This document shows positions 6,654-20,841 of a DNA stretch of 24,128 nucleotides, one piece after another. The notes below the pieces were generated by a model. It made no database searches, was not told the origin of the DNA, and saw only the letters and a program-made list of their open reading frames with translations. Location of the stretch: positions 1 through 24,128 of IMG/VR virus record IMGVR_UViG_3300007351_000186; one strand, given 5' to 3'. Positions within the stretch are counted from its first letter, which is position 1. Each line of letters begins with the position of its first letter. This DNA is from a virus. Both the position numbers and the translations under genes were made by a program.

Positions 6654-9600
6654 TGCGGCGCTCCCGCGATCTCCAGGGTCAGGTTCTCAACGCGCATCTG
6701 GAGGGCCGAGTCGATCTCCAGGCAGAGCTGCAACCCCTTACCGGAGATCCGGTCGGCCTTGAATCGGTGGGTCTGGACCGAAACGGTCGGCACGTCCGGC
6801 AGCATCTCCCACCCCGGAACATCACCGTGCGTGTCGGATAGGGAGGCTTGGACCATCGTGCTGTCGCCTACCCCGTCCTCGGTCGGGATGTCGCTCTTGA
6901 CCGAACAGGAAGCGAAGATTGCGCGCTTCTCGGTAGGGATGGTCGTGTCGTCGCCGATCCCTGACGGGTTCTCTCCCTGCGTCGTGGACAGCAGCCCCCG
7001 CGAGTTGACCGTGTAGCGCATCGACAACGCATCGGCTCCCACGGGTTTCAGGTTGCGTGCCTCGCCGGTCGCGCGGGACAGATCGAGATAGTTCGTCTCG
7101 ATCTTCATGGGGATGCCACCGATCAACAGGCTGGTAGCTGGCCCCCACACGGCGGTTTGCTCCAGTTCCGCGAACCGATACCCGTCATCCGCCATTGCCT
7201 GCTTACGGAACGTGCAGGCCCCGCGCTGGATCAGCCGGCGACGCGGCTCGTCGATCAGCGCGTAGCGCATGTCGTCGTCCACGTAGTAGCCGTTGGCGAT
7301 GTTCGCCGGGTCGGCCCCGCGATTGGGATAGACGCCGGCCGGGAACTCGAAGGACGACGTGGGGCTCGTCACGGCTGCGTTGGCTTGGTGGTAGGACGGC
7401 TCGAAGTTGGAGTCGGCCGCCATGTCTTCGAGCACGTAGATCGACCCGTGCTCCGGCCCGAACCGCTCGTGTCCGCCGACATCGGAAGTCAGGTAGCGGT
7501 GGTGGCGCAGGATGCCCAGCCGCTCGATCCCGTCGTCGCACTCGACGGAGCCGGCCCATGACATCCAGACCCGGTGCCGCCACACAGACCACGTATTCGT
7601 GCGGTAGGACCACACGAGCACTTCGTCGCACGGGAAGCGCGACCGCTCCTGGTCGCTCGCAAGATCCCACGTCGTTCCACCACCCAACGGCGGCTCGACG
7701 CCTGACACCTCGGTCGTGAACCGGAACGGCTTGGTCAGGTCCGTGTAGAGGAAGAACAGGACAAGGTTGCGGTCCTTGTCATGCGTGGCGAAGGCGTGCC
7801 GCATCAGGCCGGCGCGGTCACGCTTGTAACGCGCGTTCTGCCCGATGAATCGGTTGCGGACCTTCTCGCCGATCCACGCAACCTCGCCACCCATCAGGGC
7901 GACCGGCCCACGGTCCGAGATCCACGCAGTTCCATCGTCGAACTCGACCATCGTGTTCGGAGCGATGCAGCCGAACTCGGTGGAGATGAGACGCGGCGTG
8001 GACCCGGCGAGCGACTGCCCGAACTCGATGGCGTAGGTGTTGGACCGCGTGCAGGCAACGAACCCATTGCGCGCCGATCCGATCGCCTCGACATCCTCGC
8101 TCTTGTCGATGTCTAGGTGGATCCGGTTCCCGGCTGGAGTCGTCGTCGGCTTGCCGACCTCGCTGTGCCAGAGCTGCCCGCGCGGCAACATCATCCACGC
8201 TTCCTGATCGCGCGTCTCGTCGAGCACGGACACGTTGGCGAACGTCGGCTGGCGCGCGCCGCGCATGCGGTAGCGCGCGTATGGGTAGCCATGCTGCTGC
8301 GTTCCGATCGCAAGGGATCCAGCTCCGATCCCGCCGAAGAACGTCCACCAGTAAGCGTTCGGCGCGAACGGATGCGAATGCGTCGTGTCGTCGCGCGAAG
8401 TCATCAGCTTGTCGAGACGGAAGATGCGCTCGACGAAATACTCCTCCTCCTCGGTGATGTTCACGATCGAGGACCGCTCGATGAACTTCGTGAACAGGAT
8501 GCTCTGTCCCGAGTAGGCCGGAGGGATGTAGCCGGCCGGCCAGAACCCGACGACGCGCGACGGGATGCCGAGCAGCGAAACGCCGGCCACTGGAATCAGG
8601 ACCGCCGTGTCGCGGTCCATGTTGCGGATGTAGATTTCGTTCGGCCGCAGGTTCTCGGATGTCGTCGAACGCGCGCTCCACAGCGCGGCCGAGATCCGTA
8701 GCCGTTGCAGCTCGCCGTGCTTCCCGGCATCGCCGAGCACGCCGCCGTAGAGCGTGAACCCGCGCACGGTCGCCACGGCCTTGCACCCCATCGGCATCTG
8801 CTCGATGGCCGGCGGCGGCTGATCTAAGTCGATCTCCGATGAGTCACCGCTGAACCCGTCAACGTGGATCACGGCCGAGTAGATCGGCGTGCGATCAGCG
8901 GAGTCGAACAGTTGGTATGGATCGTTCGGCGCAGCCGGGACCTCGGCCGTCGTCTGGAAGAACATCTTGGTCCCGTGGCGCGGCAGCCGCTTGGACCCGA
9001 CGAACCCAAAGATTTTCCCGTCTGTTGACGTGGCATAGACCATCGCCGTCGTCGCATGCGCCTCGGGCATCTGGTAGCCCGGGTAAACGATCGCCAGCGT
9101 GAACACGTGCCCGTTCACTGCCGGCGACACCTGCACCTTGACGATCTCCGACGGAAGGCTGATGTCGCCCGTTGCGTCGTCGCGGATCGCCACGACGAAC
9201 TGATACTCCCCCTCGGGGATGGTGTAGGTCTCGTCGGGGTCTGGCGTGTCCTGCTTGGCGAGCCACGCACCAGATTGGTAGGGAGGCACTGCGTTGTCCG
9301 CCGCCTCGAAGATTTGCGGCTTCGGCAACCCTGCGCTGCGCGGCGCGCAGTAGTAGGGAGTCAACGGGACATCGACACCCTCGATCTCCGATGTGTCGCG
9401 GGGCGGGATGACGAACGGAACCTGGAGCGCGCACCCGAAGCCGGGCGCTGCCATGACCACGCGGTCGCTCTGAATGTCCGGCACCGTGCGGAACGGCAAC
9501 GGCTTGGTCCGACGACGCGGCCGCGCCGGCACAAACGGGTCGATCGCAGAGAAGATCGTCGGCCCGTCATGCGCCAGCAGTCCGACGGGGTAGACGTTCA

Positions 9601-17409: not shown

Positions 17410-17849
17410 GCGCCGGCCGCGACCTCAGCCGTTTCCATCAGTTCGTTCTTGTAGTCGAGAAGCTGGTTCAGCACGCGCTGGAACTCCTGCTCGACGAACA
17501 TGACCCGCTGCGCGATCGCCTGGAACGAGGCAAGGTCCGGAGCGGAGCCGACCGAGTTCACGGCGTAGCGAAGCTGCGTCAGCTTCTCGCGCAACGCGCG
17601 CAGCTCGTCGAGAGCCCCGATGATCCGGTCGGCCAACAGCGTTTGCCGGCGATGCACGGCCGCGTCGGCCTTGACGATCTCGTCCACGGCGATCATGTCG
17701 ATGCCCGTCTCGATCGCTGCTGGGAGGGTGGGCGGCTCAGCGTGCGCCATCGCGCCAGCCGCCGCCTCGGTCGCCGCCTCGGCCTCGGCAACATCCTCCG
17801 GCGACAGCCCCACCTTCTCGAACACGCTGCGCTTCTTCTCGTTGCTCAT
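17406..17849 (-). CDS. Coiled-coil protein between terminase and portal
   Basis: A 147-residue, Ala/Glu-rich, helical protein. It overlaps both neighbours by ATGA, so it is tightly coupled to terminase and portal synthesis. An AGGA lies 8 bases before the ATG. Residues 55-140 look like long helices (LADRIIGALDELRALREKLT, QRVMFVEQEFQRVLNQLLDY). There is no membrane segment. Its position and helical nature would allow a packaging accessory or small-terminase-like role, but no DNA-binding motif is evident. Confidence 0.75.
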   Translation of the reverse strand: MSNEKKRSVFEKVGLSPEDVAEAEAATEAAAGAMAHAEPPTLPAAIETGIDMIAVDEIVKADAAVHRRQTLLADRIIGALDELRALREKLTQLRYAVNSVGSAPDLASFQAIAQRVMFVEQEFQRVLNQLLDYKNELMETAEVAAGA

Positions 17850-19576
17850 TTCGGGATCCTGTCTCGCCAGGAGTTCGTGTCAACCGCGCGATCGGCCCAG
17901 CCCCGGCCTCCGAGTCCTCGTCGGTCAACCCGCACGTTGACCGCCTGACCGGGCCGATAGCGCGGCCCGGATCCTAGCTCGGATCGGAACCGGCGGACAG
18001 AGTTGGGCACGTATCGGCAGATCCGGTTGCCGTTGCGGTCAACGCGGTCGATGTCCGCGAGCGCGTCGGGGATGTCGTTGCGCGAGTGGCGCGGGAAGTA
18101 GACGAACTGGTCGATGAGTTCACCGGAGACAGGCACGGATCCGTCGTTCAGCGGCTCGTGCGGGTAGTTCAGCAACTCGCGAGTCTGCGCCAAGTCGGCG
18201 AACACGCGCGGCACCGTCCGGTTGAAGAAGATGCGGCCGGTAGCGAAACGCCCTTGCAACCCGAGGATGCGCTGCACCTTCCGGTTCTCCGCGCCCGACC
18301 GCTTGATCCGCTCGATGTTCAGCCGCACACCGCGCCGCCGAGCCTCCTCCTCGATCGCCGAGATGAACACCTCATTCATCGTGATCTCCTCGAACAGTTG
18401 CGAGTGGATCGTCAGTGCGAGCCCCCACTTCCCAAGCGTGTCGAAGAACTCCTCGATGAACTGCCCCGGCGTCCAGTGCCCCACGGAGACATCGAGCACG
18501 TAGGCCGTGTCGGTCGCGTCCATGCCGACCACGGCGATGACGGAGTGGCAGGCGTCCTCCTCCGGCTTCGTCGCGGTGTCGGTCAGGATGTAGCCGGAGA
18601 GCGTTGAGATCGTGTCCTGGTGCAGCGTGCAGAGCCGGAACTGTTCCTTGGTGAACGGCTGCGTGTCGCCGCTGATGATGCGGTTGAGATACTGCGAGGC
18701 GAAGTCCGCCGCGCGCATCGAGTTCAGCTTCGACTGGAGATAGCTGATCGGTTGGTGCTCGAAGGTCGGTGTGCCGACGAGCTTGACGATCCCCTCCTCC
18801 TCGTCCTTCACCATCTCGACGCCCGCCTCGATGATCTCGACGCGAACACCCTTCAACTCGTTCATCACGAAGTCGTAGGCGTCACCGCCGGCGTAGCGCG
18901 TGCCGATGATGAACAGCGTCCCGCCGCCCATCAGCAACGGCACGAGCATCTTGATGCACGCCTTCGTCTTCTCGCGCCCGTCCTCGGTCCGCACGTTGTC
19001 CCACGTCACCAAGTCGTCGGCGATGATGATGTCGGGGTGGATGCCGGTCATCGACACATCGACACCGCCGGACTTGAACGTCGGCTCCGGCGCGATCAGC
19101 GTGCGACCGGCGACCGTGAACTCGTCGCCCGTCTTCCCCCACTTCGACGAGCGCATGTGGCCGAACAACGCCAGCACCTTCTCGTTCTCCTCGAAGAACT
19201 GCTGCATCGTCCGCAAGATGTTCTTCGCCTCCTTGTGAACCTCGCGCACGTAGAGGATGCGGATGTTCGGGTTGCGGATCGCACGGCGCATCATGTAGGC
19301 CATGCACAGCGTCGTCTTGTAGGATCCGCGCGGCGCTTCGAGATGGTGGATGCCCGGGCCGGCTTCGTCGAAGAAGCGCGTCATCCGCTGGTGCGGCCCG
19401 TTGTCTCGGATCCCGCCGGTCCCGATGTTGATGCGCTTCTCGTCGTCCTTCGGATCCTTGTCGTAGTCGAATCCGAGCACGCGCCGCGCGAAGAAGCCGG
19501 TGTCGGACAGCGCGCGCCGGACGAACTCGGTGTGGAAGTCGAGCGTGTCGGTGGGGGTGGTTGGCGCTGAACTCAC
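17846..19576 (-). CDS. terL: Terminase large subunit
   Basis: A 576-residue DNA-packaging motor protein. The N-terminal ATPase has a Walker A-like loop at APRGSYKTT (81-89), a Walker B at DIIIADD (182-188) in which the usual Glu after the first Asp is Asp, and a coupling motif at GTRY (225-228). The C-terminal half fits the RNase H-like nuclease: LTDTA with D333, VLDVSVG with D362, and a late acidic cluster DIPDALADID (501-510). It cuts concatemeric DNA and drives it through the portal. The GTG start overlaps the previous stop (GTGA), so it is probably coupled; the Shine-Dalgarno is weak. The C-terminal 50 residues are Arg/Gly-rich. The full length and intact motifs suggest a functional enzyme. 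Confidence 0.95.
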   Translation of the reverse strand: MSSAPTTPTDTLDFHTEFVRRALSDTGFFARRVLGFDYDKDPKDDEKRINIGTGGIRDNGPHQRMTRFFDEAGPGIHHLEAPRGSYKTTLCMAYMMRRAIRNPNIRILYVREVHKEAKNILRTMQQFFEENEKVLALFGHMRSSKWGKTGDEFTVAGRTLIAPEPTFKSGGVDVSMTGIHPDIIIADDLVTWDNVRTEDGREKTKACIKMLVPLLMGGGTLFIIGTRYAGGDAYDFVMNELKGVRVEIIEAGVEMVKDEEEGIVKLVGTPTFEHQPISYLQSKLNSMRAADFASQYLNRIISGDTQPFTKEQFRLCTLHQDTISTLSGYILTDTATKPEEDACHSVIAVVGMDATDTAYVLDVSVGHWTPGQFIEEFFDTLGKWGLALTIHSQLFEEITMNEVFISAIEEEARRRGVRLNIERIKRSGAENRKVQRILGLQGRFATGRIFFNRTVPRVFADLAQTRELLNYPHEPLNDGSVPVSGELIDQFVYFPRHSRNDIPDALADIDRVDRNGNRICRYVPNSVRRFRSELGSGPRYRPGQAVNVRVDRRGLGGRGWADRAVDTNSWRDRIPK

Positions 19577-20191: not shown

Positions 20192-20620
20192 TCACTGCGG
20201 CGCGATAGGCTTGTGGGTCTTGTCGTAGAGCTCGTTGAGCTGGCCCTGCTGGTCCTTGTTCTGGTTGCGGAGCCCCAGGAACCCAAGGATCGCCAGCAGA
20301 CCGCCGCCGCTGCCCAGCCACTTGAACCATTCGCCGATGTCGGTGTCGCCGGACTTGTCGGCATCGGCGACGACCTTCCACTCCTCGACCTTGGCCGGCA
20401 GTTCGTTGAGCCGCGCCATCACCGTCGCGGCGATCGTGCTGAACTGCTTGATCGACTCGCTGACCGAGGCCAGCGTGACGGTCGCGGCGTCCAGGAGCTT
20501 CGCTCCCTTGTCGGCCATCTCGCCGATCTTCTCGACGGCGGCCGGGGCCTTCTCCAGCGTCTCGCGGAGCCCGGCGCACGAGGGGAGCGCGAGCAGCGCG
20601 CAGAGGATCAGGGTTCTCAT
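20192..20620 (-). CDS. Lipoprotein with EF-hand-like loop and C-terminal membrane segment
   Basis: A 142-residue protein. The ATG at 20620 was chosen because TAGGAG lies 7 bases upstream and ATGA overlaps the previous stop; a longer frame reaches 20671 but adds only an Arg-rich shadow. Residues 1-15 are a lipoprotein signal (MRTLILCALLALPSC) with lipobox LPSC. Residues 18-82 are helical and amphipathic. Residues 86-97, DADKSGDTDIGE, place acidic or polar ligands at positions 1, 3, 5, 7, 9 and 12 like an EF-hand calcium loop. A membrane segment follows (about 98-117, FKWLGSGGGLLAILGFLGL), then a polar tail. Lipid anchor plus C-terminal membrane helix is the layout of unimolecular spanins, which fuse inner and outer membranes at lysis. 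This is an inference; a phage-encoded envelope protein with another role is possible. Confidence 0.75.
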   Translation of the reverse strand: MRTLILCALLALPSCAGLRETLEKAPAAVEKIGEMADKGAKLLDAATVTLASVSESIKQFSTIAATVMARLNELPAKVEEWKVVADADKSGDTDIGEWFKWLGSGGGLLAILGFLGLRNQNKDQQGQLNELYDKTHKPIAPQ

Positions 20621-20841
20621 TCGTCGTCTCCTACGGTTTTTTGGTCCTTCGCCATCTCGGCATCGAGCCACGTCTTCATCGCGCCCACGCGCTCATACCA
20701 GGAGCCTTCGCCAACCGAGTAGCGGTGGCATGTCCCGTCATCCTCGACACGGCACGCAACGATGTGGACCGAGTTGAAGTGCTCGCGCAGTCGGATCGCG
20801 TGCCCGCGGACCAGCTTGAGATCGGCGTCGGCGTCGATCAT
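20617..20841 (-). CDS. Small soluble protein, unknown function
   Basis: A 74-residue protein overlapping both neighbours by ATGA. It is acidic at both ends, with a compact middle of strands and aromatic residues (FNSVHIVACRVEDDGTCHRY, EGSWYERVGAMKTWL). It resembles small conserved phage proteins with a G-x-W-Y/F-x-R-x-G motif that I have seen near tail or lysis genes, but I cannot name the family. There is no membrane segment or signal peptide. Confidence 0.65.
   Translation of the reverse strand: MIDADADLKLVRGHAIRLREHFNSVHIVACRVEDDGTCHRYSVGEGSWYERVGAMKTWLDAEMAKDQKTVGDDE

Follow-up and report, generated by a model that had tools for sequence, protein, structure and literature searches.

The 24,128-nucleotide virus record IMGVR_UViG_3300007351_000186, analysed here over its whole length and referred to as the window, carries on its minus strand a 142-aa open reading frame (20192..20620). 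Its product, P0001, combines a signal peptide with a lipobox-like LPSC motif, a coiled coil, an acidic loop, a hydrophobic segment and a charged tail. This raises the question of whether P0001 is a unimolecular spanin (u-spanin), and whether its loop may serve as a calcium switch, as the initial annotation had proposed. We put at about 55% the probability that P0001 is a spanin-like lysis protein of the unimolecular kind whose ectodomain is a coiled coil and not beta-rich.

Genomic Setting of the P0001 Gene

Nearly all clear genes of the window lie on the minus strand. The MCP matches PF17236 (4e-46), the portal matches PF23899 (2.5e-13) and TerL (17846..19576, minus strand), taken as the positional marker of the cassette, matches phrog_38 (2.5e-66). 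Judged from these sequences, the virus is a divergent SU10-like podovirus, and database phages are distant from it (top identity of about 27% for the capsid and about 25% for the terminase). Beside the tail genes, a minus-strand gene at 1625-2713 encodes a protein with a long low-complexity stretch rich in Pro, Gly and Gln.

Along the direction of transcription, the region encodes proteins of 247, 128 and about 99 residues, the 99-aa TM/helix protein P0003 (20838..21137, minus strand), a 74-aa protein with no assigned function (20617..20841, minus strand), P0001, the small lipoprotein-like P0002 (19986..20168, minus strand), a 112-aa protein and TerL, followed by the portal to capsid genes. 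P0003, a holin-like or i-spanin-like candidate, has an N-terminal TM segment, two lysines (KK) immediately after it and then a long helical stretch of polar character, and matches phrog_1009 (6e-5) and the Rz-like phrog_739 (0.007). P0002 is tiny and is encoded directly after P0001; it shows an FPASC motif, a short mature part and a C-terminal hydrophobic stretch that contains E and D. The P0001 gene is found just upstream of TerL and beside a holin-like gene. In T7-type genomes, lysis genes are located directly upstream of TerL. A lysis cassette is not proven here, because no endolysin was recognised in the window record.

The 142-aa gene itself is real, and its product has the length given in the initial annotation. 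Its start codon follows a strong Shine-Dalgarno sequence (GTAGGAGACGACGA-ATG; upstream sequence TAGGAGACGACGA-ATG) and is joined to the preceding 74-aa gene by a 4-base ATGA overlap. The GC content by codon position is 0.64/0.43/0.94, to be compared with 0.60/0.43/0.90 in TerL and 0.60/0.43/0.92 in MCP, and the antisense ORFs lack the pattern of these two genes.

Putative Membrane Anchors

The signal peptide with its lipobox-like motif (residues 1-15, MRTLILCALLALPSC; 20576..20620, minus strand) is short, consisting of R2, a hydrophobic core of 8-10 residues and LPSC. The lipobox that had been read here is thus recognisable as L12-P13-S14-C15, but the Pro at -2 is atypical and departs from the consensus [LVI][ASTVI][GAS]C (PMC6139136). 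For this reason, lipidation of P0001 is plausible, not certain. The only cysteines are C7, in the signal, and C15, in the lipobox, so that there is no periplasmic Cys, a trait shared with each of the 58 u-spanins in a published survey (PMC6139136).

At the other end, a Gly-rich hydrophobic segment (residues 102-117, LGSGGGLLAILGFLGL; 20270..20317, minus strand) is preceded by the Trp-rich EWFKW, of which residues 98-101 are WFKW. A C-terminal hydrophobic segment is present, as previously annotated, although as a membrane helix it is marginal: its mean Kyte-Doolittle hydropathy is 1.79 over 16 residues and falls to 1.41 over 19, and it contains six glycines. Over 16 residues, eight members of the T1 family of u-spanins reach 1.88-2.68. 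The tail that follows (residues 118-142; 20195..20269, minus strand) contains four K/R and three D/E and is predicted to be cytoplasmic; the charge bias of the protein fits an N-out/C-in orientation.

A Heptad Coiled Coil Between the Putative Anchors

The strongest feature of P0001 is a heptad repeat which runs without interruption over 69 residues (17-85; 20366..20572, minus strand). Its a/d positions are hydrophobic in 19 of 20 cases, a result that none of 20000 shuffles equalled. The hydrophobic moment has its maximum (1.18) at 102.9 degrees, the angle of a coiled coil, as compared to 0.87 at 100 degrees. The AF2 single-sequence model shows a helix over residues 13-85, at low confidence (pLDDT 61, pTM 0.28). 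No heptad signal was detected in two controls, namely eight T1-family u-spanins and the helix of P0003. The region initially described as amphipathic and of periplasmic type is better described as a canonical heptad coiled coil.

The ectodomain measures 86 residues from anchor to anchor in a protein of 142, the corresponding values in eight T1-family u-spanins being about 85-93 and 126-143 (three of the ectodomain lengths were re-counted from the lipobox Cys). As a straight rod, a 69-residue helix would extend for only about 10 nm, which is shorter than the typical periplasm; two-component spanin pairs down to 62 residues have been listed (PMC6139136).

A long periplasmic coiled coil is what P0001 would share with lambda Rz, an i-spanin. 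Rz, however, is N-in, with an N-terminal TM segment, has a separate lipoprotein partner (Rz1) and uses periplasmic Cys, whereas P0001 would have both anchors in one chain and the opposite orientation. Braun's lipoprotein Lpp is likewise a lipid-anchored alpha-helical coiled coil that begins just past the lipidated Cys; unlike P0001, it has no TM helix and its C-terminus is linked to peptidoglycan.

Relationship to T1-Type u-Spanins and Homologue Searches

In its layout, P0001 resembles the u-spanins of the T1 gp11 type (phrog_1804, for example that of phage Pocis76), having a lipobox-like N-terminus, a marginal C-terminal TM segment, an ectodomain of about 86 residues with no further periplasmic Cys, a small charged tail predicted to be cytoplasmic and a putative lysis-cassette position. 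It differs from them in the coiled-coil rather than beta-rich ectodomain, in the acidic DxDxSGxxDxxE loop, in a tail of 25 instead of 9-16 residues, and in the lack of sequence similarity and of any PHROG match. With hhalign, the comparison with the T1-family u-spanins gave a probability of 0.4% (E=0.14), and when the mature parts were aligned, 350 of 2,000 shuffles scored equally well. P0001 is u-spanin-like in layout, yet it stands outside the T1 family.

No homologue of P0001 was found by tblastn in phages or plasmids, or by phmmer among the ORFs of the related loci fetched by that time. Pattern scans of IMG/VR viral contigs and GTDB genome contigs gave none either, although the degenerate scan for the loop allowed Ser codons of the AGY type only and, as the window uses TCC, would miss close homologues. 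In PHROGs, Pfam and NCBIfam no family matched, exclusion and antiholin families included, and the PDB returned only chance coiled-coil matches (E>=0.7). The degenerate scan of the viral contigs yielded 20 proteins with DxDx[NSDG]GxxDxxEW-hydrophobic loops, all unrelated (TSP3-like repeats, structural proteins and one amidase) and none of them a lipoprotein with a TM segment.

A Positional Counterpart in the Nearest Relative

Profile searches with capsid, terminase and portal retrieved a single close contig, IMGVR_UViG_3300006736_000309 (L090, identical to L170 and L175). Its TerL and portal are 41% and 33% identical to those of the window, and the TerL, portal, scaffold, MCP and tail genes are collinear. 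Upstream of TerL it encodes an 81-aa protein with a coil and a C-terminal TM segment, a 94-aa lipoprotein, an 81-aa VTGC protein and a 181-aa protein, with starts that overlap or abut. One end of this contig (1-205) is a coding minisatellite of RTDTPxGRTDTP repeats.

The 81-aa protein with the VTGC motif occupies the same place upstream of TerL as P0001 and has a canonical lipobox, a C-terminal TM segment and a basic tail. Only eight of 5,965 ORFs of at least 60 aa in 168 related loci combine a signal or lipobox-like start with a C-terminal hydrophobic segment, and one of the eight is this protein, so that its occurrence at the spot of P0001 by chance is unlikely (rough estimate <1%). Elsewhere, locus L058 encodes at 9168-9518 (plus strand) a 117-aa protein with a lipobox and a C-terminal TM segment, which belongs to phrog_19883 (2e-58), has no assigned function and is a candidate for a u-spanin-like layout.

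The counterpart in L090 itself resembles the T1-family u-spanins in sequence. Its top PHROG is the Rz-like spanin family phrog_1804 (E=0.014), the family that holds the T1-type u-spanins, and among 50,697 phage records it matches a single protein (E=0.02), which is annotated as a u-spanin in Hafnia phage Pocis76. This u-spanin is a phrog_1804 member (2.5e-40) and is encoded in a holin-endolysin-u-spanin cassette, and 1,086 records contain relatives of it. An hhalign comparison with eight T1-family members gave E=2.8e-5 and a probability of 74%, over an alignment that covers the signal peptide plus the beginning of the mature protein, and part of the similarity thus falls in the signal peptide; the mature parts alone aligned better than all 2,000 shuffles. 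Between P0001 and this counterpart, the mature parts show no similarity (223 of 2,000 shuffles were equally good).

The ectodomain of the counterpart has a heptad signal (9 of 20,000 shuffles equal), but only about 33 residues separate its anchors, too few to bridge the periplasm. This shortness keeps alive another explanation, which we consider unlikely though deserving of attention, in which P0001 is an accessory protein of the inner membrane alone: its N-terminus, lipidated or cleaved, would stay at that membrane and the coil would act on holin timing or block superinfection. A span of about 33 residues is easier to reconcile with a single membrane than with two, genes of the holin-like TM/coil type are close by in both the window and L090, the Pro at -2 makes the lipid export of P0001 uncertain, and the second lipoprotein of L090 matches, very weakly, the exclusion lipoprotein Cor (E=0.17). 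On the other hand, P0001 resembles no exclusion or antiholin family in the databases searched, and its anchor-to-anchor length equals that of u-spanins. Moreover, its +2 residue is Ala, which is not the usual signal for retention of lipoproteins in the inner membrane.

Both clusters contain two lipoproteins in tandem, which speaks for a two-component arrangement, with P0003 as i-spanin, P0002 as o-spanin and P0001 as an accessory. The Rz-like match of P0003, albeit weak, and the lipoprotein-like nature of P0002 agree with it. Nevertheless, this arrangement is improbable: lysines directly follow the TM segment of P0003, for which reason its C-terminal region is predicted to be cytoplasmic, its helix has no heptad signal, both P0002 and P0003 lack any additional periplasmic Cys and any Pro-rich stretch, and their genes are separated by those of P0001 and the 74-aa protein.

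The Acidic Loop and the Calcium Question

Residues 86-97 of P0001 (DADKSGDTDIGE; 20330..20365, minus strand) form an acidic loop that matches DxDx[DNS]GxxDxxE and is placed exactly at the junction between the coil and the membrane segment. It is single and unpaired, with ligand-like residues at positions 1, 3, 5, 9 and 12 and Gly at 6. The motif D-x-D-x-[DNS]-G-x-x-D-x-x-[DE] arises in 2.5e-5 of the shuffles of mature P0001 (0.43% for a looser EF-hand spacing), and in its strict form in just one of 3,853 other ORFs of related phage loci, an EF-hand/two-TM protein of contig L006. Given this rarity, amino acid composition alone does not account for the loop.

The 12-residue EF-hand spacing noted initially is present, but the loop fails PROSITE PS00018, because its position 8 is Thr, and no Pfam EF-hand model matches P0001 at E<=5. 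With respect to the calcium loops of the EF-hand/DxDxDG type (PMC3123361), it has the same acids at 1, 3, 9 and 12 and Gly at 6, and differs in Ser at 5, Thr at 8 and the lack of a paired loop. It resembles more closely the D-x-D-x-D-G loops found outside EF-hands (PMC3123361), with Ser replacing Asp at 5. Calcium binding is possible.

The two distant SU10-like contigs L006 (467-778) and L066 (437-745) encode, upstream of the portal, small proteins in which an EF-hand-like loop at the N-terminus (DKDSSGHIDQEE and DEDGDGIVSDEE, respectively) precedes two TM helices. They give weak Pfam EF-hand matches (E 0.005-0.05), the L066 protein matches phrog_27150, and they may represent a calcium-linked holin-like family. 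As relatives of P0001 they were rejected, since the loop is N-terminal, there are two TM helices and the lipobox is missing. A calcium-loop-like sequence, DIDGDGRVDEWEW, is also found at the C-terminus of a phage amidase-type endolysin in L194 (11402-11442, plus strand).

A calcium-responsive u-spanin would be a class-I-like, coiled-coil protein in which the loop binds periplasmic Ca2+ and so locks or releases the hinge between coil and membrane that drives fusion of the inner and outer membranes, making lysis calcium-dependent. The arrangement of the ligand-like residues, the rarity of the motif and its location between coil and membrane segment speak for such a switch. Against it, the PROSITE and Pfam EF-hand searches were both negative for this unpaired loop, no homologues of P0001 were found, and the loop is missing in the L090 counterpart, which bears on conservation of the acids in a weak sense only, as homology of that protein to P0001 is not established. 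A literature search found no calcium-responsive spanin, in agreement with the initial annotation. Taken together, the proposed calcium switch is not supported, and we regard it as very improbable. A calcium-binding loop would make P0001 the first ion-responsive spanin to our knowledge, which we deem unlikely.

Proposed Mode of Action and Significance

The layout of a u-spanin has thus withstood analysis through architecture, size, gene position and the u-spanin-like counterpart in L090, whereas the calcium switch has not. If P0001 is a spanin, signal peptidase II would cleave it and Cys15 would be lipidated, placing the N-terminus in the outer membrane, while the helix at about 102-117 would remain in the inner membrane and leave the tail on the cytoplasmic side. 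Residues 17-85 would form a coiled-coil rod confined in the peptidoglycan mesh, joined to the membrane by a hinge made of the acidic loop and EWFKW. Once the endolysin has removed the wall, the rods may cluster or collapse and pull both membranes together, so that the outer membrane opens. Such a mechanism needs no role for calcium. The Pro at -2, the weaker TM segment, the helix of about 10 nm, the lack of sequence similarity to T1-family u-spanins and to the L090 protein, the shortness of that counterpart, whose own similarity lies partly in the signal peptide, and the failure to recognise an endolysin in the window count against a u-spanin, and the spanin reading is weak mainly because the evidence runs via position and layout to a counterpart with only 33 residues between its anchors.

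The surveyed u-spanins comprise 13 families in 58 sequences, six of them singletons, a diversity from which a new singleton is to be expected (PMC6139136). What is unusual in P0001, in comparison with eight T1-family members, is the coiled-coil ectodomain. Two-component spanins have been likened to viral fusion proteins of class I, which are helical, and u-spanins to those of class II, which are beta-rich (PMC6139136). A one-piece spanin with a coiled coil, if confirmed, would cross this divide by combining a single polypeptide with a helical ectodomain. It would also mean that spanins made of one piece have evolved on at least two different scaffolds and, being a single chain, it would lend itself to studying how spanins drive the fusion of two membranes.
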